From NCBI RefSeq assembly GCF_900079725.1, contig NZ_LT599032.1:1518209-1582208 (forward strand): 64,000 nt of DNA, given 5' to 3'. Source of the stretch: an uncultured Dysgonomonas sp. Its GTDB lineage: Bacteria > Bacteroidota > Bacteroidia > Bacteroidales > Dysgonomonadaceae. Shown here one piece after another: positions 15,655 through 39,379 of this stretch. Positions within the stretch are counted from its first letter, which is position 1, and each line of letters opens with the position of its first letter. The notes under the pieces are model-generated. The model ran no database searches. It saw only the letters and a program-made list of their open reading frames with translations, and was not told where the DNA came from. Both the position numbers and the translations under genes were made by a program.

Positions 15655-15723
15655 AAAGAAAAGGTTGTCATCCCGACAACCAATCTTCATTGTTAACCTT
15701 AAATCTAATACCATGAAAAACAC
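15655..15723 (-). ncRNA. Candidate small RNA, copy A
   Basis: On the minus strand TATCTTTG (15735 down to 15728) is a -7 element. The expected transcript of about 70 bases ends in a hairpin GGTTGTC/GACAACC (15663-15681, loop of 5), followed by TTTTCTTTTTTA. An upstream palindrome AAAACATGTTTT (15754-15765) overlaps the -33 region. The whole 123-bp block 15656-15778 recurs inverted at 39257-39379 with three differences. No reading frame of useful size is conserved, so a non-coding RNA is the simplest reading. The transcript would run toward the integrase pseudogene but terminates about 210 bases before it. Confidence 0.7.
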
Positions 15724-15778
15724 AGTACAAAGATAATGGAATTTTTATGTTGTAAAACATGTTTTGATGTTTTTCTTT
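15656..15778. repeat. 123-bp inverted repeat, copy A (partner 39257-39379)
   Basis: By eye 120 of 123 positions match the reverse complement of 39257-39379. One difference lies in the terminator loop and two lie upstream of the palindrome. Sequence similarity stops at both ends, so the unit is bounded exactly by an upstream site and a terminator. The rest of the gap 15447-15876 holds no gene I recognise. Confidence 0.9.
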
Positions 15779-15876
15779 CGTGATTAATATAATTTAACCA
15801 TAGGGTTTTTCTTTCCTTAATAAAATGCAGCTTAATGACCCTCTCTTGATACTGAATAGGAGGTGTTATAAACGCT

Positions 15877-16122
15877 CTACTTTACAGGTCTGAAGTTCGA
15901 ATTCTTCAAGTAGTTCTTTATTCGCTTTGCACGGTCTTCTTCCGACATACTGGCAGGTACTTCTATCGATGTTCTTTCATCTATTTTAATACATACAACC
16001 TTACCCAGACTTTTCTTATGATCGTCTAAAATCTGCTTCAGGATTTCTTCCTGCGTAAGACGTTCAATTTTTTTCATACTGCGTCCTCTCCCTTTTGAGG
16101 GAGCTTTGTTTTGTACATTCAT
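15877..16122 (-). CDS. Hypothetical protein, 81 residues
   Basis: A small basic protein beginning MNVQNKAPSKGRGRSMKKIE. Residues about 22-40 (LTQEEILKQILDDHKKSLGK) are probably helical, followed by a beta-like VVCIKIDERTSIEVP segment and a helical basic end. An internal Met at residue 16 could be the true start. I do not recognise a family. It lies upstream of the integrase pseudogene on the same strand, so it may belong to the same mobile element. Confidence 0.5.
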   Translation of the reverse strand: MNVQNKAPSKGRGRSMKKIERLTQEEILKQILDDHKKSLGKVVCIKIDERTSIEVPASMSEEDRAKRIKNYLKNSNFRPVK

Positions 16123-16580
16123 TTTGTAATGATTTTAATTTTTACGGATTGTTGAAAATCCTTTATATTATACAATTACTGATATAGAGCATTATCTTTA
16201 CATAGACAGCGGAGCTCATTTTTAGCGATTTAGATAAACATAAGCCTTAAAGTATGGATTACCAAACATTTTATAGATACTTCACAAATAAGAGTATAAT
16301 CAGCCGATTAGTAACAAATCTTATACATTGGTTACTAGACAATACTTTAGTGGGAAGAAGGGGAATTTCGTAGCAAAACAAGAATAAAAGGTTCTTGCTA
16401 ATGACAAAACTCTAAAGACCTATATAATATTGATTCTAGTTGTCCATATTGGATTTCAGCCTAAGGCCCATCAGAGGGAATTATATTATACAGAAGTGCT
16501 TATCTGCAAAGAAATCTATCAAAGACATTAATGTCCTCTAAAGTTTTTCACAAACTTCGATCTATTATATTAATAGCAGG
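16123..16580. other. Gene-poor gap
   Basis: These 458 bases have no recognisable gene. A plus-strand frame of 39 codons (16254-16373) and a TTATCTTTAC promoter-like sequence near 16190 are present, but I see no further support for a product. Confidence 0.4.
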
Positions 16581-17084
16581 CTAAAACTCCGGCTTATCTT
16601 TATAGTTACGTGAATTCGGATGTGGAACACCAAAAACCTTTGTGGAAACACTTTCGATTTCAACTTTCCATATCCGAACATTATTTACAGATGGTATGGA
16701 ATACGTAAATTTTCTTTCGGTATATTGCTGCATTATGATATCCAATGCCTTTATCTTTTCTTCAAAATTCTCTTCGAAAACAACACGACCGCGACATATA
16801 ACACTACTACCTTTTACCCTATAGCTACAGGCTACTTCCTTGTTCTGATATGTTAATACAGGCTCTGTGCAGAAAGTTATGCATACATTCGAATTCTTCT
16901 CCAAAGCCTTGATGCTACCACCCTCTTGAGCTGAATGCAGATAAATAATATCGTTCTGATAACCAAAGTTCATCGGTATAACATATGGCATACCATCAAT
17001 ATCAATCATACCGACATAACATATTTGGTTCTTTAGAATAATTTCATTTATCAGGGTACGTTCCTCAACAGTCACTGTCATCAT
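16581..17084 (-). CDS. Pyridoxamine 5'-phosphate oxidase-like (NimA-type) flavin protein
   Basis: About 167 residues from the ATG at 17084. The split-barrel FMN-binding fold is shown by CYVGMIDIDGMPYVIPMNFGY (first two strands), IIYLHSAQEGGSIKALEKN and VCRGRVVFEENFEEK. Nim-type nitroimidazole reductases and many general FMN oxidoreductases share this layout. A longer frame starts at a TTG (17120), but on the minus strand TATCTTTA at about 17109-17116 looks like a -7 element inside that extension, so the internal ATG pair (17084 or 17081) is preferred. The true substrate is unknown. Confidence 0.82.
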   Translation of the reverse strand: MMTVTVEERTLINEIILKNQICYVGMIDIDGMPYVIPMNFGYQNDIIYLHSAQEGGSIKALEKNSNVCITFCTEPVLTYQNKEVACSYRVKGSSVICRGRVVFEENFEEKIKALDIIMQQYTERKFTYSIPSVNNVRIWKVEIESVSTKVFGVPHPNSRNYKDKPEF

Positions 17085-17150
17085 AGCATGCCAAACTTTA
17101 TTTTGAGGTAAAGATAGCAAGAATATGCTTTCAGAAAAAGGGACTTATTC

Positions 17151-19442
17151 CTAATTCTTCACAGACAGTATATAATTACCTGCCGGAAAAGCCAGTGTAT
17201 GCTTTGTTTGATGTTTATAAATCTCTTTTGGCTTATATTGTCCAAGGGAAAGTTTCTTTCCATTTACTGTAATTGTTTTGTCACGGCTTTCAGGCAGATA
17301 AACGACGGCCTGAGTTCCATGAGGGACGGAGAATTTTAACAAAAATTCATTATCTGTGTTTACAAAGCCGGATTTTATTTTGCCTGCTATAGATGGTATT
17401 GTAATAGATGCATCTGAGAGGGATGCCGGATTTGGCTCTATCTTAAAGACTTTATATCCGGGCTCTAACGGATAAACACCACAAAGATACTGAGCCAACA
17501 CAGTCAAAGCACCTCCGCTCCAAGCATGATTTGTGCTACCGCCCCCATATCCGCCGACATCCCAACCTTCAAATAAAGTAGTATACCCCTTGTAATCCAC
17601 CATATTAGAGAAACGATTCTTAGTCCTCTCCATAGCATATTTACCTTCTCCCATTATAAACAGAGCTTCCATGACATATTTCTCCATATAAGGACTTGCA
17701 TAAAATTGCGTATTAAGCAGCTTAATTATATCCGGATATTTAGTTCTGTCAGCAATACCCGCTATAACAGCCAGTGCCTGCACACGATCGTCGGTACTAT
17801 CCTTATAATCATGATGCCTGTATTCCAATCCGTTCCAACATGAATTATAACCTGCCTTCACTCTATCCATAATAGCCCTGTATCCCTCAGCATCATCAAC
17901 AAACCCCAGTTCATCAGCCATCAGGGCCGCTCCTTTCAATGCAAGGTAATGCCATCCTGCAAATATCAATCGGATATCCTTGTTATCACCCCAATCGCCC
18001 CAAGTCCAGCCTCCTGCACGGAAATCCGTTAAGCCTGTATTGTCCTGCGACCATAATGAAAGATATTTTTTAACGGCAGGGTAAACCGCTTTTATCGTTT
18101 CTTTGTCTCCGGTATTCATATAGTAATTCCAGAAACCATAATATCCTATACTAGCCAGCATTTGTCCGGGAAGTTCGCTGTTGTAATTTCCTGCCGGAAT
18201 AGGAGAAAACAGAGTCCCGTCATTTTTCTGCCAGGCGGCAAGTTCTTTTATTGCTTTACTCATTAATGAGTGCGTAGAAGGTGAGTATGTATAGAAACTC
18301 TGCCCCATAAGCACCACTACATCACCCCACCACTGAGCACGCTCCCTATCTGGGCAATCGAAATATGTATCCCGCATGTTTATGTAAAGTGTACGAAGGG
18401 CTTTATCCCAAAAACGCATATAAAAAGTATCACTACATGAAAATGCCCCTTCCATTTCTGTATCATAGCCGGTTTCCCGGTATCTTACCCCATCTATCTT
18501 TACACCTGACGGTACTGTTACGTATATCTTTTGTCCATTGAGCCAACCAAGTGATTCATAGTTTTGACTTCCTTTCTTTGTGATATATTCAGCTCTCAGG
18601 TTTATATCTCCGCCAGCCTCCATATGATCTGTAAAAATAGAGATCAGATTACCTCCATCTTTATCAGAAATATCTACAATAGGCGTCATCTGCATATTGT
18701 ACGGAAGGCAAGCTATAACCGTATCACGTTCTACACCCTTTACCCGTTGCAGTTTGGAAGCTTTTTTAAGACCGAAATCCTTCCAGAATGGGATTGGTCT
18801 TTTTATCAGGTTATTCCATGGGGCATCCCCCCAATTACCTAGTTCAACTGCATTTTCGAAGCCATACAAGCTCTGGCAATCTGCTGTTTGCCAATCATCA
18901 ATATCCTCCCGCGCATCGAAACGGATATTTGACTCAGGCAGACGATAATTAGGGAAAGGTTCTCCCGTATTACCATAAGCAGGATGTCTCTTGCACAACC
19001 ACGAAGCATCGCTTACCAAATTCTGAGTACCCAATTTTGCATCAAAAATGAGTCCTGCTTTACCACTACTCTTATGAGAAAATCCGTCTTTGCCAAAATA
19101 CCATAAAAGAACGGCTATTTTATTTTCACCGCTTTTAAGGAAAGGAGCTATATTCACCTCGTCATAGTATGTGTCTATCGGGTTAGGCCCACGTTTAAGT
19201 CCCCCTTCAAAAACAACCATTTTTCCATTAATCCAAAGCCAGTATTTACTGTCAACGGCAATCCTGGCTATAACTGCAGCAGGTACTTTCTCAACCGATA
19301 CGTCTTTTCGGTAAGCAATCCAGGTATTCGGTTCATTTATGGTTTCATCTGTCGATGTTATCCATCTGGATTGGGCATTTGTAATTTGAGAGCTAGTTAA
19401 ATAGCAAACAAGCAATAAGAAAATGTTAATAATATTTTTCAT
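17151..19442 (-). CDS. Secreted GH78-type alpha-L-rhamnosidase
   Basis: A 763-residue protein with an N-terminal signal peptide (IINIFLLLVCYLTSSQITNA). Two beta domains follow (IAVDSKYWLWINGKMVVFEG is a GH78 N-domain signature), then an (alpha/alpha)6 barrel from about residue 345. The catalytic motif is DCPDRERAQWWGD near residue 360. TLFEGWD and the NHAWSGGAL motif (near 645) are also typical of the family. A beta-sandwich ends the protein. It would release terminal L-rhamnose from plant or bacterial glycans in the periplasm. No rhamnose catabolic genes are adjacent, so it stands alone. Confidence 0.9.
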   Translation of the reverse strand: MKNIINIFLLLVCYLTSSQITNAQSRWITSTDETINEPNTWIAYRKDVSVEKVPAAVIARIAVDSKYWLWINGKMVVFEGGLKRGPNPIDTYYDEVNIAPFLKSGENKIAVLLWYFGKDGFSHKSSGKAGLIFDAKLGTQNLVSDASWLCKRHPAYGNTGEPFPNYRLPESNIRFDAREDIDDWQTADCQSLYGFENAVELGNWGDAPWNNLIKRPIPFWKDFGLKKASKLQRVKGVERDTVIACLPYNMQMTPIVDISDKDGGNLISIFTDHMEAGGDINLRAEYITKKGSQNYESLGWLNGQKIYVTVPSGVKIDGVRYRETGYDTEMEGAFSCSDTFYMRFWDKALRTLYINMRDTYFDCPDRERAQWWGDVVVLMGQSFYTYSPSTHSLMSKAIKELAAWQKNDGTLFSPIPAGNYNSELPGQMLASIGYYGFWNYYMNTGDKETIKAVYPAVKKYLSLWSQDNTGLTDFRAGGWTWGDWGDNKDIRLIFAGWHYLALKGAALMADELGFVDDAEGYRAIMDRVKAGYNSCWNGLEYRHHDYKDSTDDRVQALAVIAGIADRTKYPDIIKLLNTQFYASPYMEKYVMEALFIMGEGKYAMERTKNRFSNMVDYKGYTTLFEGWDVGGYGGGSTNHAWSGGALTVLAQYLCGVYPLEPGYKVFKIEPNPASLSDASITIPSIAGKIKSGFVNTDNEFLLKFSVPHGTQAVVYLPESRDKTITVNGKKLSLGQYKPKEIYKHQTKHTLAFPAGNYILSVKN

Positions 19443-19584
19443 GTTCCATAAATTAGTGAAGCATATATAAGTTTAGTCTCCGAACTTCTATCTAAGGGCA
19501 TTAATATAGAGCAACGAACTATTATATATTGTATCAGAAAAAGGGAAGTCGGGCATATTATTCACATCCCTCAATCTCTGATTT

Positions 19585-20538
19585 TTAAAGCATATCTACA
19601 ATGCTACGTTGATAGTAAAAATATTCATTTCTCTGCAGTTCTCCAGATACAGAGATTAAAGTTGAAAACCGTATCAATGATTTTATCCAACGTTTGTGGT
19701 TCTCACATACTACAGGATTGTCGCAAGACAGAAAATCGACACAATACAAGCCTATTGCTCCAGCTTCATAACCAGCCCCGGACATATAGGTATAAGTACA
19801 GTCAAAAGAAATATGGGATATATAAATATCGAGCTTCTTTCCATATAACGATAGTCCCGAGATGGCACATTTCTCCATGTCGTTCAGCATCATATGAAGT
19901 TCCTTTTTTATCTGTGCAGTCTCGTCATTAGAAATCATTTCCATGCTCTGAAAATATTTCACAATCTCTACAAAATCAGTAAAAATATGCTTATCGAAAA
20001 TCAGAACTGAATTGACACGATGAACTGCAGTTATCGCTTTCTTTTGCAATACATGAACTTCATTCGGAATCTGAACTTTTGAAAATTCCTTTGGTACAGA
20101 TTGCGGATATAACTGATACAGTAAAATATAAAGATATACTTTCCCTAATAGTTGATATTTGAATAAGAATTCTTGCGGTAATGCTTTATAGGCCATATAC
20201 AGAAAACATGCCGGATCTTTTTTTATATATTCTATTCCATCAGTCACCTCTCTCATCATACGGCAATACTCAGCCATAGGTTCTTCGGTAAAGACAGCAC
20301 CCAGATGAAAAGCATAAGTATTATCATGTTTCACCCCTATCAGGAGATCCAGTGATACGTTCATTTTTCTGCAAATGTTTACGGCTTCATCTAATGTGAA
20401 AGGTATTTCACCCCGGAGTCTGCGGTATGCAGCTTCCTTCCCCAAGGGAATGATACTCATCAATAGATCTACAGTATTTTGATCTTCAGTAGTATTTCTC
20501 TTTAACGCTCTAATTAATTCTTCTGTTATTACATCCAT
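19585..20538 (-). CDS. Putative helix-turn-helix regulator, 317 residues
   Basis: The first about 70 residues resemble an XRE/BetR-like DNA-binding region (LGKEAAYRRLRGEIPFTLDE, then ICRKMNVSLDLLIG). The remaining 240 residues are mainly helical with no motif I know. Proteins of this shape recur in gut Bacteroidales and are usually annotated only as helix-turn-helix proteins. It is 142 bases upstream of the rhamnosidase on the same strand, so it could regulate it. That is an inference. Confidence 0.6.
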   Translation of the reverse strand: MDVITEELIRALKRNTTEDQNTVDLLMSIIPLGKEAAYRRLRGEIPFTLDEAVNICRKMNVSLDLLIGVKHDNTYAFHLGAVFTEEPMAEYCRMMREVTDGIEYIKKDPACFLYMAYKALPQEFLFKYQLLGKVYLYILLYQLYPQSVPKEFSKVQIPNEVHVLQKKAITAVHRVNSVLIFDKHIFTDFVEIVKYFQSMEMISNDETAQIKKELHMMLNDMEKCAISGLSLYGKKLDIYISHISFDCTYTYMSGAGYEAGAIGLYCVDFLSCDNPVVCENHKRWIKSLIRFSTLISVSGELQRNEYFYYQRSIVDML

Positions 20539-20678
20539 AAGATTAATCTAAGATATATTTATTGGGCAATCTCACTAAGCACAACTAAATTACTACGTTT
20601 TACCTAGATGGCAAAATTAAAAGCCCGAAAACTCGAAGAAAGTTTACGAACCATGCTTTCGAGGCTCTATAAGGGATA

Positions 20679-20714
20679 CAAAAAAAAACTTCCGGCACAA
20701 TTTTGTGCCGGAAG
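20679..20714 (-). terminator. Intrinsic terminator of typA
   Basis: On the minus strand a perfect stem, CTTCCGGCACAA with its complement (20689-20714), is followed by nine or ten Ts (20679-20688). It lies about 42 bases past the typA stop codon. Confidence 0.92.
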
Positions 20715-20756
20715 AATATATATAAGTTAGTTTTATCGAATCAAAATGTTTTATTC

Positions 20757-22562
20757 TTAATTGGCGTTTTTTGTCATACGCTTACGGTCATTCTCATCAA
20801 GATATATCTTCCTCAAACGGATAGAATTAGGAGTAACCTCTACATATTCATCTTCCTTAATATATTCCAAAGCATCTTCAAGGCTAAAAATAATGGCTGG
20901 AGCCAATCGTACCTTATCATCTGTACCGGATGCACGCACATTTGTTAATTTCTTAGATTTTGTGAGATTCACAACCAGATCGCCATCCTTATTGTGCTCA
21001 CCTACAATTTGCCCCATATAAATATCCGTTTGTGGCTCAACAAAGAAGCGTCCCCGATCTTGTAGTTTATCTATGGCATAGGCAAAGGCATTGCCCGATT
21101 CGCTGGCAATAATAGATCCGTTCGCACGCTTTTCGATATCACCCTTCCATGGTTGGAATTCAAGAAAACGATGTGCTATAACAGCTTCTCCTGCCGATAG
21201 TGTAAGAGCTGTATTATTCAACCCTATTATACCTCTCGACGGTATGGTAAATTCGAGATACACACGATCTTTTTTACTTCCCATCATTGTCAGCTCACCC
21301 CGGCGACGTGTTACCAGATCGATAATCTTACTGGAGTATTCCTCCGGAAGGTTAATAGTCAACTCTTCTACCGGTTCATGTTTAACGCCGTTTATTTCCT
21401 TTATAATTACTTTTGGTTGTCCTACCTGTAATTCATATCCCTCGCGACGCATTGTCTCTATCAGGATAGATAAGTGAAGGATACCACGTCCGAATACCAG
21501 CCAGCTATCGGCACTTGCAGTAGATTCTACACGCAAAGCCAGATTACGGTCAAGTTCCCTCATCAGACGGTCATGTATATGGCGCGATGTCACAAACTTA
21601 CCATCCTTTCCGAAGAAAGGAGAATCATTGATTGTGAAAAGCATTGACATTGTTGGCTCATCAATATCGATAGTCGGTAATGGCTCCGGATTTTCTATAC
21701 TAGCAATTGAATCTCCAATTTCGAAACCCTCTATTCCTACAAGGGCACATATATCTCCGCATTGAACAACAGGGACTTTTGTACGTCCCAGTCCTTCAAA
21801 TGTATTTATTTCTTTTATCTTAGTCTTAATTATGCTCCCATCCCTTTTGCAAAGAGAAACATCCATATTCTCTTTCAATTCGCCACGATGAACACGTCCT
21901 ACAGCTATACGTCCTACATATTTGGAGTAATCGAGCGATGTAATCAGCATTTGCGGGGTACCTTCCAAAATTTCGGGGGCAGGTATATGCTTTACAATAG
22001 CATCGAGAAGCGGGGCGATATCTTCGGTGGGTTTACGCCAATCATCAGACATCCACCCTTGTTTGGCCGAACCATATATGGTAGGGAAATCTAACTGTTC
22101 CTCAGAAGCGTCCAGACTGAACATAAGGTCAAAAACCATTTCATGTACTTCATCAGGACGGCAATTCGGTTTATCTACTTTATTGATAACCACAATCGGT
22201 TTCAGTCCCATCTGAATAGCTTTCTGTAAAACAAAACGCGTTTGCGGCATAGGCCCCTCAAAGGCATCGACCAACAACAAACAACCGTCAGCCATATTCA
22301 ATACCCGTTCTACCTCACCTCCGAAGTCGGCGTGTCCGGGAGTATCTATTATATTGATCTTTGTTCCTTTATAATTGATGGAAACGTTCTTGGATAGGAT
22401 AGTGATTCCACGCTCACGCTCCAGATCATTATTATCGAGAATAAGTTCTCCTGCTGATTGATTCCCTCTGAAGAGTTGTCCGGCAAGCAGCATCTTATCT
22501 ACAAGGGTAGTCTTACCGTGGTCTACGTGCGCGATAATCGCAATATTTCTAATATTTTGCAT
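20757..22562 (-). CDS. typA: Translational GTPase TypA/BipA
   Basis: About 601 residues from the ATG at 22562. The frame opens upstream at a TTG (22583), but [19 protein letters not shown] is the normal start. G-domain motifs are all present: AHVDHGKT (P-loop), RERGIT (switch I), [12 protein letters not shown] (G3) and NKVDK (G4). Domains II and III and the BipA-specific C-terminal domain follow. The protein binds ribosomes and supports 50S assembly and stress growth. It is a single-gene unit with its own terminator. The length is normal for the family. Confidence 0.97.
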
Positions 22563-22685
22563 ATATATGATTTGAGGGTGCAAAGGTACTACTTTTTAAT
22601 AACATACAATCAAAAATAGCATTAAAAGAGAAGCGATACTTCCAATAAAATAGGATACCATTTACCTGCTATATTTAGGATATAA

Positions 22686-23450
22686 TCAGGATAAGGCTTT
22701 ACCCTGGGGATGTATAAACAAAAAGTCACCCGATAATTTTCTTAGAGCCTCTTCATCAGAGGTGAGGAGACTGCCTTGCAATTTATGAGGGATGTAACCA
22801 AGTCTCTTAAATAAGTTTTTTACGGGTTCTTCGTTTTCTCCCCATACTTCTACCTGAACTACCGGCCTAAACTTATTTATAATATTTTCCATATCGGACA
22901 AGACAACGTGTTCAAATCCTTCTATATCACATTTTATATAGTCCAGTCTTTTTATGGATGAAAATAACTTTGACGGAATTTTCATTTTAGCGTCAAATGT
23001 AAATTCCTGAGTCCGAATATCCCCATCTCTCCGGGAATCATATACATGAGGCAAACCCGTCCTTAAATATCCGACGTTAGGAGAACAGACCAATGTGACA
23101 TCCTTTTCTTCTTTTCCTAATGCGTAGGGATACAATACGATATTCTTTCTTTTATGGGCTTTTTCATTAAATATCTTATTATACAAAGCGATGGGCTCCA
23201 CCGAATATACCATCCCCGATTTTCCTACCCACGAAGACATCAATATGGAGTAATAGCCAAGGTTAGCTCCGATGTCTATTACAATATCTCCTTCGTGTAT
23301 TAGATTTCTTATATAATAATGATATTCGTATTCCTTCTTATTCTTTAGCAACCCCCATCTATACATTACAAAAAATAATCTTTGCAACAGCCGTAAGTAG
23401 TTTTCAATACTCAGGTAGCGAAAGATTATTTTTTGTATGCTATTTTTCAT
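22686..23450 (-). CDS. FkbM-family methyltransferase
   Basis: A 254-residue SAM-dependent methyltransferase. Motif I is VIDIGANLGYYSILMSSWVG (about residues 57-76), with VEP after the next strand, and the FkbM signature DYIKCDIEGFEHVVL near residue 167. The protein has a basic, hydrophobic N-terminus. FkbM enzymes O-methylate sugars or other hydroxyl groups. It is the last gene after the lipid A cluster (69 bases after lpxA), so a lipid A, LPS or capsule sugar target is plausible but unproven. Confidence 0.88.
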   Translation of the reverse strand: MKNSIQKIIFRYLSIENYLRLLQRLFFVMYRWGLLKNKKEYEYHYYIRNLIHEGDIVIDIGANLGYYSILMSSWVGKSGMVYSVEPIALYNKIFNEKAHKRKNIVLYPYALGKEEKDVTLVCSPNVGYLRTGLPHVYDSRRDGDIRTQEFTFDAKMKIPSKLFSSIKRLDYIKCDIEGFEHVVLSDMENIINKFRPVVQVEVWGENEEPVKNLFKRLGYIPHKLQGSLLTSDEEALRKLSGDFLFIHPQGKALS

Positions 23451-23519
23451 ATGTTACGTAGATTTGACTATTTACAGGACTTTATTCGTAAAGCCTTTTA
23501 TAATCAAAAAAGAGATTAA

Positions 23520-24305
23520 TTACCCCATGTATCCTCTAACGATTCCGCGAGGTGAGTTTTTCACAAAATCTACGATTAATCTCATCTCGGGAGTTTCTTC
23601 AAACTCTTTCTCAATTTTGCTTATGGCATCAGAGAAATTGAAACCCGACTGATAGATAATCCGGTATATTTCCTGTATTTCATTTATTTTCTCATTGGAA
23701 TAACCATTCCGTCTCAGTCCGACAAGGTTTACACCGGAATAACAAACAGGCTCACGTCCTGCAATAATATATGGAGGAATATCTTTACCTAAACGGGTAC
23801 CTCCCTGAATCATTACATGTGCTCCGATACGTGTAAACTGATGTACCAATGTACCTCCACTCAAGATAGCATGATGATCGACCTCTACCTCTCCGGCCAG
23901 CTGTGTTGCATTTCCAACTATTGCATAATCGTTTATCACACAGTCGTGCGCAATATGGCTATATGCCATTAACAAACAATTACTGCCAACTTTTGTATAT
24001 CCCTTCGATGCTGTTCCACGATTTACGGTAACACACTCTCTAACGGTAGTATTATCTCCCACAATAGCAAGACTGTCCTCTCCTCTGAATTTTAGATCCT
24101 GAGGATGACCTCCTATCACAGCTCCCGGAAATATGCGGCAACCTTTCCCTATACGGGCTCCATAACGTATATTAGCGCCGGACATGACTAGCGTGCCATC
24201 TCCTATTTCTACATTTTTATCGACAAAAGCGAATGGTTCTATTACTACATTCTCTCCTAATATTGCCTCAGGATGTACATATGCCTGATGAGATATATTT
24301 GACAT
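23520..24305 (-). CDS. lpxA: UDP-N-acetylglucosamine acyltransferase LpxA
   Basis: A 261-residue left-handed beta-helix enzyme. Hexapeptide repeats run through residues about 5-190 (LGENVVIEPFAFVDKNVEIG), with the catalytic His in MAYSHIAHDC (near residue 122). A helical C-terminal domain follows. It adds the 3-O acyl chain to UDP-GlcNAc, the first step of lipid A synthesis. It lies downstream of lpxC/fabZ in the order lpxD-lpxC/fabZ-lpxA usual in Bacteroidales. Length and motifs are complete. Confidence 0.97.
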   Translation of the reverse strand: MSNISHQAYVHPEAILGENVVIEPFAFVDKNVEIGDGTLVMSGANIRYGARIGKGCRIFPGAVIGGHPQDLKFRGEDSLAIVGDNTTVRECVTVNRGTASKGYTKVGSNCLLMAYSHIAHDCVINDYAIVGNATQLAGEVEVDHHAILSGGTLVHQFTRIGAHVMIQGGTRLGKDIPPYIIAGREPVCYSGVNLVGLRRNGYSNEKINEIQEIYRIIYQSGFNFSDAISKIEKEFEETPEMRLIVDFVKNSPRGIVRGYMG

Positions 24306-30784: not shown

Positions 30785-31468
30785 ATGATAAAATATACCC
30801 TGATACTTTTTAGTATATTAACTTCCCCTTTACTTACAACAGCCCAGACCTTAAAAACCGAGAGTGACACACATATCTTCTGGCAACCAAATCGTAAATT
30901 GACAGTAGCAGACTTTAAAGGCGAGTGCTGTACTGAAGAACGATTAAGAGATTTGTGCAAAGAAAAAAATATGTGTACAATGGCTTATACCGGATTTTTC
31001 TCGATACTGGATATACCTAAAAAGAAAAAAGACAGAGGCAAACTGATCGAAAAAGCATATTTTGCTCCCGCATTTGAAAAGAACACTTCGTATATGGTCT
31101 TCAAAAACGATACTCTGGGAATCGAAAAACAACAAATAGTATTCGACATATATGAATTAGCCGCACGAAAAGTTCGGAAAGATTTGGACGATGTTTATAA
31201 AACAACGAATGCATACGGCACTATTCACCTTATGTATGGTAAAGTGAAAGATAGTATTGATAAATATAGGACCACCCTGGTCGAATTGTTTGTAAAAGAT
31301 ACATATTTGGATAATAGGGAGGGTGCCTATAAAGAATGGAGAGAAAAAATTGACGAGGAACTAGACAAACTAAGAGCTTATGCCACGACTCCCGAAGATT
31401 GTTACAGGTTTGTCCTCAACAAACCAATGAATGAACAATATGTAATGGCAGAGGTTATTTATCCATAA
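30785..31468 (+). CDS. Secreted DUF922-like protein with altered active-site motif
   Basis: A 227-residue protein with a signal peptide ending TTAQ. The opening W-x-x-x-RKLTVADFKG is the DUF922 entry motif, normally a putative zinc-protease-like domain. Near residue 115 it has KQQIVFDIYELAARKVRKDL, aligning with the family's HEQ-x-HFDI-x-E-x-x-AR-x-x-R. Here both His residues are replaced (HEQ to KQQ, HFDI to VFDI). If the alignment is right it is a non-catalytic relative. The C-terminal half is helical and charged. Confidence 0.55.
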   Translation: MIKYTLILFSILTSPLLTTAQTLKTESDTHIFWQPNRKLTVADFKGECCTEERLRDLCKEKNMCTMAYTGFFSILDIPKKKKDRGKLIEKAYFAPAFEKNTSYMVFKNDTLGIEKQQIVFDIYELAARKVRKDLDDVYKTTNAYGTIHLMYGKVKDSIDKYRTTLVELFVKDTYLDNREGAYKEWREKIDEELDKLRAYATTPEDCYRFVLNKPMNEQYVMAEVIYP

Positions 31469-31515
31469 GTAATACTGATTTTGTAGTTTCGCAATTACAA
31501 ACTAAATATAAAAAT

Positions 31516-31971
31516 ATGAACGAGCTGAACATCAACTACGAAGGAATATCGTCAACCAGAAAGGTCGCGAATATAGTTACAGGTATATATCTGGCTGCCT
31601 TTACGCTGTATTTTACAGTTACGGAAGGAATTGCCAGCAGGTTCGGATTTTTTTTCTTCTGCGCTATTGTCGGGTTTATTCTTGCGGATATATTGATTTT
31701 AAGTAATACCCTATGGCTACAGGGTTCAATTCTCAAAATTGATACCGGTTCGGTTACATCCGCTTTACCCAAACAAAGTAAAGTGACAATTGACTGGACC
31801 AGTGTAAGCCGCGTAAATATCGGTATAAGCTATATCGTTTTCCTGATAAACGGGGAGAAAAAACAAAGACGGATCGACCTTGTAACCCTCAGATATGAGG
31901 ATGTACTTGCCACTAAAGCTAAAATAGTGGAAATATGCGAATATAAAAATATCCCGTATCAGAACGATTAA
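31516..31971 (+). CDS. Small membrane protein, PH-like, unknown function
   Basis: A 151-residue protein with two hydrophobic spans (about residues 20-36 and 43-60) joined by a short loop. A soluble part follows with KVTIDWTSVSRVNIGISYIVFLI and a helical end. The layout, two spans then a small beta-rich domain, resembles bacterial membrane PH-like proteins but no named family is recognised. It is 47 bases downstream of the DUF922-like gene and probably co-expressed. Confidence 0.65.
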   Translation: MNELNINYEGISSTRKVANIVTGIYLAAFTLYFTVTEGIASRFGFFFFCAIVGFILADILILSNTLWLQGSILKIDTGSVTSALPKQSKVTIDWTSVSRVNIGISYIVFLINGEKKQRRIDLVTLRYEDVLATKAKIVEICEYKNIPYQND

Positions 31972-32335
31972 CTGAAAAAACTTTATCTATGTATATAGCT
32001 TTTAGCCTTTAGCTATCAGCTGATAGCTCTTTGAAAAAATAATTAGCAGATTTGTAAATTAGCATATTAGCAAATGAGTGAAAAGGTGTAACCTTTGTTA
32101 CCTTTTTGTAAAAAGATACGAGTAGACAAAATATCGGATCAGGTTGTTAACTGATGACTGCTTACTGTTGACTGAAAATGTTGTTACCTTTGTTACTTTT
32201 TGACCGTTACGGGTTGTTTACTGAAAGATATCCGCTCCCGCTTTTTTCTTTCCGGGAAAAAAATGTAGTTTTGTATTGTCCAAAATTTAAGACATTCTGT
32301 CTTGAATCTTTTGTAACCGATAAAACAGCTAACGT
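31972..32335. repeat. Intergenic repeat region with GTTACC units and an 18-bp palindrome
   Basis: No gene is seen. Features are AACTTTATCTAT (31979-31990), the perfect palindrome AGCTATCAGCTGATAGCT (32011-32028), two AAAAGGTAACA-like blocks (32079-32112 and 32173-32198) and a GTTAACTGATGACTG stretch. Related modules occur at 46.9-47.3 kb in opposite orientation. Confidence 0.6.
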
Positions 32336-34339
32336 GTGAAAACAGAACATGAAGAGAAGGTGACCGGGCTACCTGAAAATGCCTTCCGTGAACTGAAGTC
32401 CGGCGAAGAATACAAGCCGGTAATGTCTCCCGACAAACAGTATAAAGAAGTAACTCCATGGTCGGTACTATGGGGGCTGGTAATGGCTGTACTCTTTAGT
32501 GCCGCTGCGGCTTACCTCGGGCTGAAAGTGGGCCAGGTTTTTGAAGCAGCCATCCCGATAGCCATTATTGCTGTGGGGTTATCGACAGCTACCAAGAGAA
32601 AGAATGCTCTGGGTGAAAATATAATTATCCAATCCATTGGAGCCAGCAGCGGGGTTATTGTGGCAGGTGCGATATTTACGCTTCCGGCTTTATATATCCT
32701 GCAATCCAAATATCCCGAAATTAGTGTCGACTTTTTTCAGGTATTTTTAAGCTCCTTATTGGGCGGTATATTGGGTATTCTCTTCCTTATCCCGTTCCGT
32801 AAGTACTTTGTATCCGATATGCATGGAAAATATCCTTTCCCTGAAGCTACAGCAACCACACAGGTACTTGTATCGGGAGAAAAAGGTGGCAGTCAGGCTA
32901 AGCCACTTATATTTGCCGGAATCATCGGGGGAGTTTACGATTTTGTTATTGCCACATTCGGCGCATGGTCGGAAACATTTACCACACGCGTTTTGCCTTT
33001 TGGCGAGGAAATTGCCGATAAAGCTAAAGTGGTATTCAAAGTAAACATAGGTGCCGCCGTTTTAGGGTTGGGCTATATAATAGGGCTGAAATACGCGGCA
33101 ATAATCTGTGCCGGTTCCGCATTGGTATGGTTCGTTATCGTTCCGCTTCTTCCTTTTCTGGGAGATACTATGCTGGCAACTTTAAATCCTACTTTTGCAG
33201 GAGTCATTTCTAGTATGACGCCGGAAGCAATATTCACTACTTTTGCCCGCCATATCGGTATCGGAGGTATTGCAATGGCCGGAGTTATCGGTATTATAAA
33301 ATCGTGGGGAATTATAAAAAGCGCAGTCGGTCTCGCTTCTAAAGAACTTAGAGGCGGAGCTGCTGATACAAAACAGATAGACAAGCGTACTCAATGCGAC
33401 CTGCCGATGAAGATTATCTCTATCGGTATCATTGTTGCACTGATTGTGACATTCCTTTTCTTCTACTTCGGAGTGATACATAACTTATTGTATGCAATAG
33501 TGGGTATTCTTGTTGTGGCCATTATAGCTTTCTTGTTTACTACGGTTGCTGCTAATGCAATTGCGATTGTAGGTACAAATCCGGTTTCGGGCATGACGCT
33601 GATGACTCTGATCTTAGCCTCAGTGGTTATGGTAGCCGTAGGATTGAAAGGGACATCGGGTATGGTTGCCGCCCTTATTATAGGGGGTGTGGTTTGTACG
33701 GCGTTGTCGATGGCGGGAGGTTTCATTACCGACCTTAAAATAGGTTACTGGCTGGGATCAACACCCGCGAAGCAACAGTCTTGGAAGTTTTTAGGCACAC
33801 TGGTTTCCGCAGCAACAGTAGGCGGTGTAATACTGATATTGAATAAAACATACGGATTTACAGGAGCCAATGCTCTGGTAGCACCACAGGCCAACGCCAT
33901 GGCAGCGGTTATAGAGCCATTGATGATGGGAGCCGGGGCCCCGTGGGTATTATATGCAGTAGGAGCTCTGATAGCCATTTTACTCACTTTATTACGCGTG
34001 CCTGCACTGGCATTTGCTTTAGGGATGTTTATTCCGATGGAACTGAACGCACCTTTGTTAATTGGTGGTGCTGTTAGTTGGTACGTTGGCAGTCGCAGTA
34101 AGGATGAAGCCCTGAATGCCGCACGGCTGGAGAAAGGTACATTATTAGCCTCCGGATTTATAGCGGGAGGTGCATTGATGGGTGTAGTCAGCGCTGCTAT
34201 GCGTTTTGGAGGTATAAACCTTGTGAATGAAGAATGGTTGGCTAACAGTGGTTCCGAATTACTGGCTCTGGCTATGTATCTGGTCATAATTGGTTATCTG
34301 GGTTATTCTTCGTTGAAAGCAAAGAAAGAAATGTTGTAA
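32336..34339 (+). CDS. OPT-family oligopeptide transporter
   Basis: A 667-residue membrane protein with about 15 hydrophobic spans. PWSVLWGLVMAVLFSAAAAY begins span 1. The conserved region GKYPFPEATATTQVLVSGEKGG is an OPT signature, and GANALVAPQANAMAAVIEPLM lies in the second half. OPT proteins import oligopeptides or metal-chelate peptides by proton coupling. The start is taken as GTG at 32336 because the first in-frame ATG lies beyond residue 25, close to the first span. No regulator is adjacent. Confidence 0.92.
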   Translation: MKTEHEEKVTGLPENAFRELKSGEEYKPVMSPDKQYKEVTPWSVLWGLVMAVLFSAAAAYLGLKVGQVFEAAIPIAIIAVGLSTATKRKNALGENIIIQSIGASSGVIVAGAIFTLPALYILQSKYPEISVDFFQVFLSSLLGGILGILFLIPFRKYFVSDMHGKYPFPEATATTQVLVSGEKGGSQAKPLIFAGIIGGVYDFVIATFGAWSETFTTRVLPFGEEIADKAKVVFKVNIGAAVLGLGYIIGLKYAAIICAGSALVWFVIVPLLPFLGDTMLATLNPTFAGVISSMTPEAIFTTFARHIGIGGIAMAGVIGIIKSWGIIKSAVGLASKELRGGAADTKQIDKRTQCDLPMKIISIGIIVALIVTFLFFYFGVIHNLLYAIVGILVVAIIAFLFTTVAANAIAIVGTNPVSGMTLMTLILASVVMVAVGLKGTSGMVAALIIGGVVCTALSMAGGFITDLKIGYWLGSTPAKQQSWKFLGTLVSAATVGGVILILNKTYGFTGANALVAPQANAMAAVIEPLMMGAGAPWVLYAVGALIAILLTLLRVPALAFALGMFIPMELNAPLLIGGAVSWYVGSRSKDEALNAARLEKGTLLASGFIAGGALMGVVSAAMRFGGINLVNEEWLANSGSELLALAMYLVIIGYLGYSSLKAKKEML

Positions 34340-34364
34340 TACTCTGTATTCTTAAATATAAGGA

Positions 34365-34400
34365 AAAGGATGGGGCGATTGTTCCATCCTTTCTTTTGTT
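34365..34400 (+). terminator. Terminator of the OPT transporter gene
   Basis: AAAGGATGG (34365-34373) pairs with CCATCCTTT (34384-34392), with a 10-base loop and CTTTTGTT after it. It lies 25 bases past the stop codon. The gap to the next gene (up to 34642) holds no other gene; it contains AACTTTATCTAT (34427-34438) and an ACCTT/AAGGT hairpin with six Ts near 34450. Confidence 0.82.
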
Positions 34401-34642
34401 AAAAAAAGTCCGTATTTTTTTCTGGAAACTTTATCTATGTTATAGATTACCTTATAAAGGTTTTTTGACTTTCTGGAAAAATTTATTTGTTTCTGATTGC
34501 AATTAAATGAATTTTGGTAAAAAAAATATCAGACAAACTAAACTATTCGTCGATAAAACTATCCCATTTGTCGAACATTCTTGTCGTATTCTTTGAATGG
34601 TAGTAATATTGAAAGCTCAAATTCACAAAAACTTATTAAAGT

Positions 34643-36607
34643 ATGAGAATCCATAAATTCGTTTTTAGTTTATTCTGTAGTATATGTCTATTTATCGTTT
34701 CATCCTGTAGTGATAGTACAGACGACATTATTACTGATGAAGATGGAGTTGACGATGATACTGAAGTTGTTATTGATGACGATTTTGAGACCAACTCCCG
34801 GGACTCTGTGTTCTCAAATGCAGTTACCATTACCTTTTCTGATAATGCAGCAATAATTACGAACCCGTATGAAAATGACGGAGTGAATATTACCCAAAGT
34901 GATGGCAATGTAGTTGTTACCTCTACAAATCTGGTGACAGAAATTAATTATGTCTTGTCAGGAAGCATACAAAACGGTTCATTTAAGATTTACAGCGATT
35001 ATAAATTCGGACTTATGATGAACGGGGTGGATATTACCAGTAGCGATGGCCCTGCCCTCAATGTTCAATCCGGGAAAAAAGTAACTGTAACTCTCGTAAA
35101 CGGAACAAACAGCAGACTTATCGACAGTAATACCTATACGGCATATGCTGATGAAGATATGAAAGCTGCATTCTTTAGTGAAGGGCAGTTGAACTTCGAA
35201 GGAGAAGGAAGCCTGCTTGTGTATGGAAGATATAAACATGCTATTTGCAGTGATGATTATATAAGAGTGAAAACGGGAAATATCACAGTAGCCACAGCCG
35301 TCAGCGATGGTATCCACGCCAAAGATTATTTCCGTATGGATGGTGGAACCCTGAATATTAAAGCTTCGAGCGATGGCATAGATTGCGATAAGGGATATAT
35401 CCGGATAGATGCCGGAAATATAACAATAAACAGTAGTGATGATGGTATAGTAGCTTCATATGAAGACACTGATACAACTATCGATCCATATATAACTGTA
35501 GGTGATGCCACCATAAATATTACTACCACAGGCCAAAAGGCTCAGGGTATAAAAAGCGACTTAGGTTCTTTGTCCGTTACTGCCGGAACAATCAACATAA
35601 CGACTAAAGGGACAGCTGCCAAGGCCTTCAAGACAGGGGGTGATATGAATATAAGCGGAGGTAATATTACATTGGTTACAACCGGAGATGCTTTTTATGA
35701 TACGGATGATAAAGATATATCATCTGCAGCAGGTATAAAATGTGACGGCAATCTGGCCATTGATAAAGGAACAATCACTATAGAAAGTTCCGGCGCAGGA
35801 GGAAAAGGCATCAGTGTAGATGGTGAACTTGTCATTAATGGAGGAACTATAAAAGTCACAACAACAGGGGGGCAGTTTAAATACGGTTCGGATGATACTG
35901 CCGCCAAAGCTATAAAAAGTGATGGAAACCTGACTGTCAATAGCGGAAATATCACGATCAAGACCTCCGGCGTGGAAGCTGAAGGACTGGAAAGTAAAAA
36001 GACCCTGACCATCAATGACGGCACAATAGAGATAGAGGCATATGATGACTGTATCAATGCATCCAATCACATAGGGATCAATGGTGGAAATATATACTGC
36101 TATAGTGAAAGTAATGACGGAATCGACTCTAACGGCACATTGACGGTTACAGGCGGGGTTGTTGTTTCGTCGGGTACAAAATCTCCTGAAGAGGGTTTCG
36201 ACTGCGATAACAACACGTTCAAGATTACAGGCGGAATACTTGTAGGCACCGGCGGAGCAACCAGCAACCCAACAGCGAGTGTCAGTACCCAACGGTCGGT
36301 TGTTTATGGAACTACGGGCACAGCCAACCAGATTATACATATAGAATCTGCGGATGGGAAGAGTGTACTAACTTATAAAATACCACGTACATATTCACCG
36401 CTGACGCTATTGTTCAGCAGTCCCGATCTGGCAGCAAATACGAGTTACACTATATATACAGGCGGAAGTGTTTCGGGCGGAAGCGATTTCCACGGACTAT
36501 ATACACGAACGACATATACAAAAGGTACGGCAGCTACGACTTTTACAACAAGTTCTATGCTGACAACTATCGGAACATCTTCAGGAGGGCCGGGAGGACG
36601 GCCCTGA
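34643..36607 (+). CDS. DUF4353 (Cthe_2159-like) carbohydrate-binding lipoprotein
   Basis: A 654-residue lipoprotein with lipobox IVSSC (Cys22), then an acidic Asp-rich linker ([20 protein letters not shown]). The body is a right-handed beta-helix built of about 20 repeats of the form GxINxTTxGxAAKAxK, for example [20 protein letters not shown] and [16 protein letters not shown]. This matches the Cthe_2159 family, which binds acidic plant polysaccharides and calcium. It is expected on the cell surface or in the periplasm. The C-terminus is Gly/Pro-rich (SSGGPGGRP). No sugar-degrading gene is adjacent. Confidence 0.85.
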
Positions 36608-36635
36608 TTAATACGTTTTTTAGGTTAATTGTAGG

Positions 36636-36675
36636 GAGCTATTCCGGGATGGAATGGCTCTTTATCTTTTTCAAA
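36636..36675 (+). terminator. Terminator of the DUF4353 gene
   Basis: GAGCTATTCC (36636-36645) pairs with GGAATGGCTC (36651-36660) with one G-T pair, followed by TTTATCTTTTTC. It starts 29 bases past the stop codon. Confidence 0.8.
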
Positions 36676-36823
36676 TAACTTTATCTATATATACAAACAG
36701 AGGTATAGACTGATTTTCCGGAGAGAACTATTAGTGAGATTAATCTAAAATGATAATTTGTATATATCGGATTTTAATAATATACTTGTATAAGAATAAT
36801 CGGTTTCTATAAAATCTAACCGT

Positions 36824-37648
36824 ATGAAACAAATAATCTGTTTTATAATAATTTTATTAGCTGCCACATCCTGTAGTTCTACTTACTTCTTTTCTACATT
36901 GAATACGAATAATGAATATGTAGAAAAAGTAGACAACGGAGACTTTCTTTTGGAAACAGACAGCTTATGGATTGCCTATTGTTTCAAGGGTGAAAGTGCT
37001 CCCATACAGATTACGGTTTTCAACAAGCTGCCTGTTCCCTTGTATGTAGACTGGCAACGCTCTGCACTTATACTGGATGGCACAGCATATTCTTATGCGA
37101 AAGACAAACTTAATTTCTCTGGAAGTGCTGAAGTATTCGTGGATAGTTATAATCTTTCGCCTGATCAGACATACAGTTTTGCAGACGGAAGTTTTGCCGG
37201 AGATATAGAATCGCCTCAAAATATAAGTTTCATACCTCCCAATACAATGATTAGCTATATTCCTTTAAGGCTGAATATGAATTTCGACAAATTGGACAAG
37301 AATCTATATCGAGACTCTTATCTAGGAGATAAAGACAATAATGCAATAAAAGTAAAGAGGATAGATTATTCCGAATCCGACAGCCCCTTACACTTCGAAA
37401 GTTATCTGACTGTTTATGCCCGACCGGAACATCCTATGACATTTCAGCAAAACTTCTATATGTCGAATTTAATCAAAACCCAGTCTATAAAGCCATCTAA
37501 CCTTCCAGGAGATATGGCCGAAAGAGGAGATTTCTTTTACATAGAAAAACCAGCTAACAACACTTTCTGGGAGATACTGTTGGGCACAACCCTCGTTGTT
37601 GGAGCTGTAGCAATTGAAGTTGCCGTAGACGCAAATACCAGATATTAG
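36824..37648 (+). CDS. Lipoprotein of unknown function, 274 residues
   Basis: A lipoprotein with a signal sequence ending in lipobox AATSC (Cys17). The mature part is beta-rich, with VFNKLPVPLYVDWQRSALI near residue 65 and FIPPNTMISYIPLRL near 140. The C-terminus is a hydrophobic span (FWEILLGTTLVVGAVAIEVA), unusual for a lipoprotein and consistent with a membrane-anchored tail. No known family is recognised. It is convergent with the oxidoreductase gene (stops 3 bases apart). Confidence 0.75.
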   Translation: MKQIICFIIILLAATSCSSTYFFSTLNTNNEYVEKVDNGDFLLETDSLWIAYCFKGESAPIQITVFNKLPVPLYVDWQRSALILDGTAYSYAKDKLNFSGSAEVFVDSYNLSPDQTYSFADGSFAGDIESPQNISFIPPNTMISYIPLRLNMNFDKLDKNLYRDSYLGDKDNNAIKVKRIDYSESDSPLHFESYLTVYARPEHPMTFQQNFYMSNLIKTQSIKPSNLPGDMAERGDFFYIEKPANNTFWEILLGTTLVVGAVAIEVAVDANTRY

Positions 37649-37651
37649 AAA

Positions 37652-38974
37652 TCACCCCTCCAACAGCTTTACAGCATCAATGTAGCGGGCTATTCCCCGC
37701 GCCACTTGCTTAGCTTCACGCATAGCTAAAACAACAGTCTGTGGCGTATGCACGACATCCCCTCCGGCAAAGACTCCTTTACGGGTGGTCATACCGTATG
37801 GATGTTCTTTAGTTATTACATAGCCGCTATCATTCACTTCAATACCCAAGGATGTAGACACTATACGGTTGGCTGGCTTTGAGCCGATAGCAATGAAAAC
37901 ACGTTCCATAGGCATTATCTTTTCCCCTTCGGGTGTTTCTACACGAATGGCTTTGAGTGTATTATTTTCACCGAGACATTCCACTGTCCGGCTCTCCCAA
38001 AGAAAATTCACTCCTTCCTCTACCGCTTCGTTATATTCAGTCTTTAGCGCAGGCAATTCATCTTCTGTCTTGCGATAAATGATGTTTACCGAATTCGCCC
38101 CCATTCTCAAGGCTGTGCGGGCAGCATCCATAGCTACATTTCCGGCACCAATAATAGCTACATTTTCCCCTTCCACCAATGGCACGGCATTACGGCTTAT
38201 GTCGCCGTTATTATAGAGATTAACCATCCGTAGAAAGTAAGATGATTGCAATACCTTATATAGATTGATACCCGGAATGTCTAATCTGTTTGGGACAGAC
38301 GTTCCTGAACCTATAAATACAGCATCGAATTCACGTGACAACATCTCGTCCACGGTCATCTTTTCACCAACAAGAAAGTCATTAATAAAGGTAACACCCA
38401 AAGCTTCTATTTTATTTATCTCCCTGCGGACAATATCTTTAGGCAACCGATACTCCGGTATACCATACATTAATACCCCTCCGGGTTCTTTTTGTCCTTC
38501 AAACACAACTACATTAAATCCCTCCCTGGCCAGGTCTCCGGCTACGGTCAGCCCAGCAGGTCCGGAGCCAACTACAGCAACCTTTCCTCGGGTTTTGGGT
38601 TTTAGTCGCTCTTTTATAAGATTCATATCACTGTCGAAGTCCGCGATAAAACGTTCCAATTTGCCGACTCTCACCGGATTGTCTTTTTTATTAAGAATAC
38701 AATGACCTTCGCATTGCTTTTCATGTGGGCAAACCCTTCCACATATAGCCGGAAGATTACTCTTCTCATTTATTATTTGCATTGCCGCGCCAATATTTCC
38801 CATTGACAACTGATTCACAAAACCAGGAATATTATGCTCTATAGGACAACCCTGTATACATAATGGGTTTTTACAGTTGAGACATCGTTTAGCCTCATCA
38901 ATAGCTTCTTTAGCGGTATAACTTACATTTATTTCAGCAAATTTATTACTTCTCATTTTTATTAAATTATCCAT
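37652..38974 (-). CDS. gltA: NADPH-dependent glutamate synthase-type oxidoreductase
   Basis: About 440 residues from the ATG at 38974 (a GTG two codons upstream is also in frame). The N-terminal ferredoxin-like part has a Cys cluster EAKRCLNCKNPLCIQGCP and ICGRVCPHEKQCEGHC for two iron-sulfur centres. FAD-binding GSGPAGLTVAGDLAREG and NADPH-binding IGAGNVAMDAARTALRMG follow. Such proteins are the small subunit of glutamate synthase or the NADP-reducing partner of related enzymes. No large GltB subunit is in the window. The upstream palindrome suggests regulated expression. gltA follows the homotetrameric-family naming and is tentative. Confidence 0.88.
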   Translation of the reverse strand: MDNLIKMRSNKFAEINVSYTAKEAIDEAKRCLNCKNPLCIQGCPIEHNIPGFVNQLSMGNIGAAMQIINEKSNLPAICGRVCPHEKQCEGHCILNKKDNPVRVGKLERFIADFDSDMNLIKERLKPKTRGKVAVVGSGPAGLTVAGDLAREGFNVVVFEGQKEPGGVLMYGIPEYRLPKDIVRREINKIEALGVTFINDFLVGEKMTVDEMLSREFDAVFIGSGTSVPNRLDIPGINLYKVLQSSYFLRMVNLYNNGDISRNAVPLVEGENVAIIGAGNVAMDAARTALRMGANSVNIIYRKTEDELPALKTEYNEAVEEGVNFLWESRTVECLGENNTLKAIRVETPEGEKIMPMERVFIAIGSKPANRIVSTSLGIEVNDSGYVITKEHPYGMTTRKGVFAGGDVVHTPQTVVLAMREAKQVARGIARYIDAVKLLEG

Positions 38975-38985
38975 AAGCACAGTTT

Positions 38986-39010
38986 TTGCAATGTTAACAT
39001 TGCAAATATA
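38986..39010 (-). promoter_or_regulatory. Promoter with 20-bp palindromic operator
   Basis: On the minus strand TATATTTG (39003-39010) is a -7 element and runs into the perfect palindrome TTGCAATGTTAACATTGCAA (38986-39005). The palindrome ends 11 bases before the oxidoreductase ATG, covers the expected transcription start and could bind a repressor dimer. A further TTGCA half-site lies near 39034. Confidence 0.7.
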
Positions 39011-39256
39011 TGTACTTTTTTGCTATATACATATTGCAAAATAAGTTTTTATAAAAAATAAAAGAGAATTACAGAAATAGAATTTTATTAAAAAAGAAAT
39101 AAAATCAACCTGCTCTATCCTTTCTATATAGATAATTCTTTTAGAATAAAATAATAAATCAGAGTGTAAAGTTTATAAAATAATGATTTCAAGACTTAAA
39201 GTGGATAGATTTAAAGAAAAACCTCACCAGGGCAAGTTAAATAAAGTTAACAAAAT

Positions 39257-39379
39257 AAAGAAAAGCACCAAAACATGTTTTACAACATAAAAATTCCATT
39301 ATCTTTGTACTGTGTTTTTCATGGTATTAGATTTAAGGTTAACAATGAAGATTGGTTGTCGTGATGACAACCTTTTCTT
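39257..39379. repeat. 123-bp inverted repeat, copy B (partner 15656-15778)
   Basis: Reverse complement of the copy at 15656-15778 at 120 of 123 positions by eye. It contains the palindrome AAAACATGTTTT (39270-39281), TATCTTTG (39300-39307), the transcribed part and a terminator. Similarity stops at both ends. The gap 38975-39382 has no other gene. Confidence 0.9.

Follow-up and report, generated by a model that had tools for sequence, protein, structure and literature searches.

FopS, a multicopy family of small RNAs (sRNAs), acts in Bacteroides thetaiotaomicron as a repressor of SusC translation (Ruttiger et al. 2025, PMC11697453). As described there, B. thetaiotaomicron carries 14 FopS genes, the seed R1' lies within the single-stranded 5' part of the RNA, and FopS blocks translation of a SusC-type transporter by pairing at the start codon; the RNA-binding protein RbpB antagonises FopS, bile salts induce it, and growth on high-mannose N-glycan lowers its level about 3-fold relative to glucose. 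The same source reports conservation of the family in Bacteroidaceae and its sequence in one Caudovirales phage, excludes small open reading frames at its FopS loci, and leaves open which transcriptional regulator acts on FopS. Here we have analysed 64,000 nucleotides of an uncultured Dysgonomonas sp. (assembly GCF_900079725.1, contig NZ_LT599032.1, forward-strand positions 1,518,209 to 1,582,208; hereafter the window) that hold two inverted FopS copies, and we argue that the promoters of this pair are probably under the control of the carbon regulator Cur and sugar-responsive.

Cur (BT4338) is a Crp-family carbon regulator with the consensus wwwTATGTTnTAnAACATAwww, and a similar site precedes the BT4338 gene itself (Ravcheev 2013, PMC3878776). 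Binding of BT4338 has been confirmed at the fusA2 promoter, and the protein both activates and represses (Townsend 2020, PMC6989115). Glucose and fructose silence Cur, and the carbon-limitation-induced B. thetaiotaomicron sRNAs BTnc140, BTnc195 and BTnc364 lie near Cur sites (PMC10294740); another sRNA, MasB, is Cur-activated (PMC10994844). In the passages of PMC3878776 and PMC6989115 on Cur, FopS is not named as a member of the regulon, and in those found in PMC11697453 Cur appears only as a mutant-phenotype comparison and in the reference list, with no word starting 'palindrom' in its main text. We found no link between FopS and Cur in passages from the open-access literature on the Cur regulon, BT4338 and sRNAs, a scope outside which supplements and subscription papers may hold one; the Cur-type operator in FopS promoters, with its two promoter designs, looks new.

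The two blocks are FopS genes with near certainty, as judged by covariance-model score: RF04319 (BTncRNA_FopS, Rfam release 15) matches both over its full length (model positions 1-71) and above the gathering cut-off of 56 bits (Table 1). A preliminary description had presented 15656-15778 and 39257-39379 as inverted copies of a promoter-to-terminator sRNA unit, without saying whether the family was known or new. The Rfam search settles the latter question in favour of a known family, and the alignment bears out the former reading, with 120/123 identical positions between the second block and the reverse complement of the first, differences where they had been placed (39265 and 39268 at the upstream edge, 39362 in the terminator loop), and a -7 element, about 71-73 transcribed bases and a GGTTGTC/GACAACC hairpin with a T run in both copies. 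Similarity was also said to stop exactly at the borders, which does not hold, as weaker similarity (AAAGAAAAAC..., GTTAA) runs on upstream. Likewise, the pair itself is confirmed, but "duplicated" sets the count too low: in the host genome, a single 5.22-Mb contig, six FopS genes exceed the Rfam cut-off, and a seventh, degenerate match at 4996307-4996376 falls short of it with 41.5 bits. The window blocks are two of six FopS genes in a Dysgonomonas genome, not a unique duplicated gene, and the pair belongs to an sRNA family already known, here in a genus other than Bacteroides. The Dysgonomonas genes share with FopS of B. thetaiotaomicron a score above gathering, a 5' R1 seed, similar length, the terminator, the -7 box and the multicopy state; they differ in copy number, with 3-8 matches per genome against the 12-15 reported for Bacteroides species (PMC11697453). 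GibS shares the seed R1 with FopS (PMC11697453) and differs from it by a seed R2 and a promoter motif 2 with elements at -10 and -30 (PMC7366714); we rejected that motif for the window promoters, in which a canonical -7 box lies below one palindrome.

Table 1. Coordinates of the FopS pair in the window, and Cur-type sites beside sugar-related genes elsewhere in the genome
Feature	Position	Strand	Basis
FopS copy 1 (RF04319), +1 at about 15723	15651..15723	-	Rfam 81.2 bits, model 1-71
Terminator hairpin GGTTGTC-loop-GACAACC, copy 1	15663..15681	-	sequence
-7 element TATCTTTG, copy 1	15728..15735	-	sequence; TAnnTTTG consensus from PMC7366714
Cur-type operator ATGTTTTACAACAT, copy 1, centre about -30.5	15747..15760	-	consensus in PMC3878776, PMC6989115
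Cur-type operator ATGTTTTACAACAT, copy 2, centre about -30.5	39275..39288	+	pattern match
-7 element TATCTTTG, copy 2	39300..39307	+	sequence
FopS copy 2 (RF04319), +1 at about 39312	39312..39382	+	Rfam 78.5 bits
Conserved 5' seed region (R1/R1') with TTCATGGTATTAGATTTAAGGTT	39312..39341	+	exact core matches; seed role from PMC11697453
Terminator hairpin GGTTGTC-GTGAT-GACAACC, copy 2	39354..39372	+	sequence; paired in minimum-free-energy fold
Cur-type site beside class II aldolase, itself next to AraR/NrtR-type regulator gene			Pfam
Cur-type site beside GH43 glycosidase and sugar-acetyltransferase-like protein			Pfam
Cur-type site beside glyceraldehyde-3-phosphate dehydrogenase			Pfam

The palindrome in the FopS promoters is probably a Cur site, and we predict from its sequence that Cur binds it: in both window copies the core ATGTTnTAnAACAT agrees exactly with the published core of the Cur (BT4338) site, with the outer T changed to C on one side. 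The preliminary description had proposed a shared regulator acting through the palindrome AAAACATGTTTT. A shared regulator still seems right, acting through another palindrome, ATGTTnTAnAACAT, that overlaps the first; AAAACATGTTTT as a conserved unit does not stand. Although the window contains AAAACATGTTTT two times, where shuffled sequence has a mean of 0.02, there are only three places genome-wide, two of which are the window copies (reversed control, 6 per strand), and the third close FopS copy, at 1469126, reads AAATATGTTTT instead. As an operator it was rejected, being present in 13/50 class A copies (defined below) and 0/102 others, and, among the genome's own FopS genes, only in the two window copies; AAAACATGTTTT is a flank variant of the -30 site.

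Conservation of the Cur-type operator was assessed in two sets. Upstream of 138 exact matches to the FopS core (122 GTDB, 16 viral), ATGTTnnnnAACAT is present exactly in 37 and with one mismatch in 17, against 0.0 and 1.5 per shuffled set; all 54 sites belong to GTDB copies, 43 at -30 and 11 at -60, and none, exact or with one mismatch, was found in the 16 viral upstream regions. The second set comprises 121 fetched and 34 already collected copies, together 155 above the cut-off from 28 genomes, of which 152 were usable. Here the operator centre falls between about -27.5 and -31.5, counted from Rfam position 1, in 49 copies (class A; 39 from Dysgonomonas, 10 from others), at about -60.5 in 20 (class B) and elsewhere in 2; these class sizes follow an upstream-first rule for two-site copies, a nearest-site rule giving 50 and 21. 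The operator centre TA, which was not a selection criterion, is kept in 46/49 class A and 17/20 class B sites, and in 26/49 class A sites ATGTT is preceded by C in place of T. In all 18 Dysgonomonas genomes, one FopS copy or more has a -30 site. Furthermore, GTTAA recurs at a near-constant distance upstream of class A, with 51 occurrences at -65 to -77 over the 49 copies.

It has to be asked whether the housekeeping sigma factor alone drives FopS, the palindrome being an A+T-rich accident or a regulator-free variant of the -33 region. The 81/152 copies without an operator would suit such a promoter, as does PMC11697453, which marks a canonical promoter alone at FopS genes. We nevertheless consider this improbable, since exact operator sites occur in 40/98 fetched copies from Dysgonomonas and 18/56 from others, against 0.04 and 0.01 in shuffles, and since the symmetric centre and flanks of the operator are conserved across FopS copies. 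A genus-wide search with the joint operator-promoter pattern ATGTTNNNNAACATN{6,13}TANNTTTG argues the same way: of its 45 matches in the 18 Dysgonomonas genomes, 39 end within 8 bases of a same-strand FopS gene, and the reversed pattern has 2 matches. The six matches away from FopS lie in G009:C59, G013:C253, G013:C276, G016:C8, G016:C9 and G017:C12 (our genome and contig handles). A further search from operator to -7 box took gaps of 6-36 only and is blind to class B sites.

The two operator positions go with different promoter architectures. Both window promoters have the canonical -7 element TATCTTTG and lack a TTTG-like -33 box, as does class A generally (0/48 with such a box), whereas the box is present in 20/20 class B promoters and in 50/62 site-less copies with a recognisable -7 box. 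Some class A sites read ATGTTGTA, with a bare TTG, and judging by these letters a weak -33 contact might conceivably persist there. Seed type and promoter class are strongly associated in the 152-copy set (48:1 versus 2:18, Fisher 2e-13, uncorrected for kinship). The GTDB set of exact cores contains CATGG seeds alone by its design, and 11/54 of its sites are at the upstream position; therefore, the association does not hold order-wide. In three CATAG-seed Dysgonomonas copies (G000:3244692, G001:C11:136039 and G013:C80:7752) another near-palindrome, TTTGGAATATTCCAAA-like, lies at the -33 box, and is perhaps the site of a second regulator.

Beyond FopS, the genome offers other Cur-type sites and a candidate for Cur itself. 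ATGTTNTANAACAT occurs at nine places in the window's genome, three of them FopS promoters, and its reversed sequence at none; three of the six non-FopS ATGTTnTAnAACAT sites adjoin sugar-related genes by Pfam (Table 1), the candidate served genes being simply the neighbours. One of the remaining sites, at 4677491-4677504, adjoins a gene of the sigma-70 family (regions 2 and 4), and genomes G006 and G011 have a similar site in identical context letters. Three Crp-family genes are encoded, of which one (L266) is preceded, 89 nt ahead of its first ATG, by ATGTTTTGTAACAT, with the ten core bases exact and a centre TG instead of TA. Its best relative in the Protein Data Bank is 2gau, a Crp/Fnr regulator (E=1.1e-63), and no NCBIfam model scored above its cut-off. 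L266 is the likely Cur candidate, to judge from its sequence and the site before it. The resemblance to the described Cur regulon thus extends to the ATGTTnTAnAACAT core, to some other sites by sugar genes and to a similar site before the candidate cur; the differences are that the FopS site lies over the -33 region and that 26 of the class A sites have the outer C.

As for the sign of control, we somewhat favour repression over activation as the predicted effect of Cur on FopS, because the class A operator covers the -33 region, where no TTTG-like box is left, and a site so centred would occupy a region contacted by polymerase. The lower FopS level on N-glycan than on glucose (PMC11697453) and the silencing of Cur by glucose and fructose (PMC10294740) both fit Cur as a repressor. 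In the circuit we propose, scarcity of preferred sugars would lead Cur to bind over the -33 region and FopS transcription to stop, so that outer-membrane glycan transporters could be translated; glucose or fructose would silence Cur, FopS would be made, and the glycan transporters would be shut off.

The opposite sign is kept as a rival because a Cur-dependent promoter, too, could lack the -33 box. Cur would then replace the box and activate, and FopS would be made when sugar is scarce and transporters without substrate are not worth making. Class I Crp-type activators sit near -60, and the class B sites, with the box intact in every copy, lie at just that position, which suggests Cur activation for class B; indeed, Cur is known to activate the sRNA MasB (PMC10994844). 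For the window pair we regard activation as rather unlikely given the position of its sites and the N-glycan response; Cur is reported as activator and repressor alike (PMC6989115). The genome's other Cur sites were considered as a guide to the sign and set aside, their spacing to the -7 box being too uncertain.

With Cur as a repressor, the closest functional parallel is Spot 42, which most likely FopS would resemble in being off under its Crp-family regulator when sugar is scarce. The partner protein of Spot 42 is Hfq, whereas that of FopS in Bacteroides is RbpB; FopS is also multicopy, and we claim no sequence kinship between the two. The spf (Spot 42) gene of E. coli and Vibrionaceae is repressed by cAMP-CRP, and the analogy lies in repression by a Crp-family protein without glucose and in an action aimed at the uptake and catabolism of non-favoured carbon sources (PMC3295665).

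On the target side, the RNA encoded here combines a conserved seed at its 5' end, GUGUUUUUCAUGGUAUUAGAUUUAAGG, with an intrinsic terminator, and from the work on B. thetaiotaomicron it would be expected to base-pair around the start codon of SusC-type mRNAs and block their translation. We compared FopS bases 1-45 with start regions from -45 to +30, start codons being set by script. The mean duplex energy was -18.8 kcal/mol for SusC (n=30 of 56 found) and -18.7 for SusD (n=28), against -14.1 for 45 hand-picked open reading frames of the window; dinucleotide-shuffled seeds gave -13.95, -13.04 and -13.89, respectively, and reached the real mean in 0/150, 0/150 and 52/150 cases. These energies do not single out SusC, SusD starts scoring equally. 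Genome-wide, TTAAATCTAATACCATGAAAAA with up to three mismatches matched only the six FopS genes, so that no near-perfectly complementary mRNA was found by this search. Three RRM_1 open frames of 101-112 amino acids are encoded in the genome as RbpB-type candidates.

Several of these results weigh against a sugar-responsive, Cur-controlled FopS pair. Apart from the many copies in the larger set that have no operator, just three of the six FopS genes in this genome, the window pair and the one at 1469126, are class A, and the other three are without a site. The lost -33 box would also be compatible with an activator that substitutes for it, and Cur does not account for the induction of FopS by bile salts in B. 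thetaiotaomicron. Of the six non-FopS Cur-type sites, three adjoin an oxidoreductase, a chorismate-binding enzyme and the sigma factor, with no plain sugar role, and L266 is at best a putative orthologue of BT4338. Finally, the duplex model has the seed fitted to the starts of SusC and SusD genes alike, which departs from a strict SusC reading, and in the single-sequence minimum-free-energy fold of copy 2 a stretch of the seed, bases 5-14, is paired with downstream bases.

Selection on the RNA unit, as the preliminary description had proposed from the pair alone, is borne out by a curated Rfam family, a widespread exact 5' core and a terminator kept despite changing letters. Both window copies contain the 23-base core letter for letter, as do at least 119 GTDB stretches and 16 IMG/VR contigs; the GTDB matches listed include Prevotella, Tannerella, Barnesiella, Coprobacter, Odoribacter, Dysgonomonas, Bacteroides and other genera, as well as Muribaculaceae and Paludibacteraceae. 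The known range of FopS is thereby widened beyond Bacteroidaceae, to Dysgonomonas, Tannerella, Barnesiella, Muribaculaceae, Paludibacteraceae and others. All 18 Dysgonomonas genomes examined have FopS, with 3-8 matches each at E <= 0.001, and 99/106 of these matches are above the cut-off. A hairpin with a T run follows 108/122 exact-core GTDB copies, compared with 14/122 in shuffled sequence. These terminators comprise 53 different stem strings, or 42 once nested ones are merged (G-U pairs allowed, kinship uncorrected), and in 37/108 the TTGTC/GACAA of the window stem is missing from both arms. A look for compensatory changes had been suggested, and this is what it returned, a hairpin retained while its letters vary. 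Typing covered 80 of the at least 119 GTDB loci (85 matches), 3 of which stayed unclassified; four loci labelled as targets for an antisense open reading frame of more than 60 amino acids were rejected as such, all four also having a FopS promoter and/or terminator. FopS genes can be tightly clustered, with four copies in 1.8 kb (G007:C250:99330-101177) and three in 0.7 kb (G003:C3:58819-59478).

Given its viral occurrences, FopS might instead be mainly mobile or phage-spread cargo, duplicated without regulatory meaning. In addition to the 16 IMG/VR contigs with an exact core, FopS-like DNA is found in 5 phage and 17 plasmid-collection records, and a borderline open reading frame of the phage-integrase family (14151-14843; 26.7 bits, cut-off 27.1) lies near copy 1. 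We think this very improbable for the window copies: a sister genome, G006, has FopS at the matching positions, so the two are old residents. Most of the segment is collinear there, in blocks of about 87-93% identity, with FopS at both places; therefore, the duplication is older than the split. Over 134 aligned columns, including end gaps, the G006 pair differs at 2 positions, the orthologues at 8 and 12, and the window pair at 10. Gene conversion is suggested in G006; in the window's genome it is not. The window also holds short related repeats at 31977-32204 and 46894-47293.

Of the 16 exact-core viral contigs, only 1 reaches the Rfam cut-off, a hairpin with a T run is found by a strict rule in 8/16, and TAnnTTTG is missing from the 60 bases upstream in 10/16; so phage FopS copies seem to rely on promoters or processing of another kind. 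Two of these contigs (L018 and L030) encode portal, terminase-like or primase proteins. In another (L019, 3770-3935, minus strand), the FopS 5' end lies a few bases behind a tRNA-Arg, with a terminator-like hairpin after it, and this layout looks as if 3' processing of the tRNA would release the sRNA. The induced phage BX-TP2 of Bacteroides xylanisolvens (PQ571285.1, 44785-44863) carries an unannotated FopS-like unit with the seed CATAG and both -33 and -7 boxes.

We tentatively venture a wider proposal, in which FopS is the Bacteroidales counterpart of Spot 42, wired to Cur by two promoter designs. Copies with a -30 site (mostly seed CAUGG in the 152-copy set) would be repressed by Cur and those with a -60 site and a box (mostly CAUAG) activated by it, so that paralogues would swap with sugar supply, and phages may use the seed against SusC-type surface proteins.

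Glycan uptake in gut Bacteroides is known from published work to be braked post-transcriptionally by FopS, and Cur would name the missing switch of this RNA. Since the motif is a named and published one, the question of the regulator becomes testable with existing kinds of strains (cur and fopS deletions) and existing Cur ChIP-seq data. If true, the proposed control would join two layers of sugar control in Bacteroidales into one circuit.

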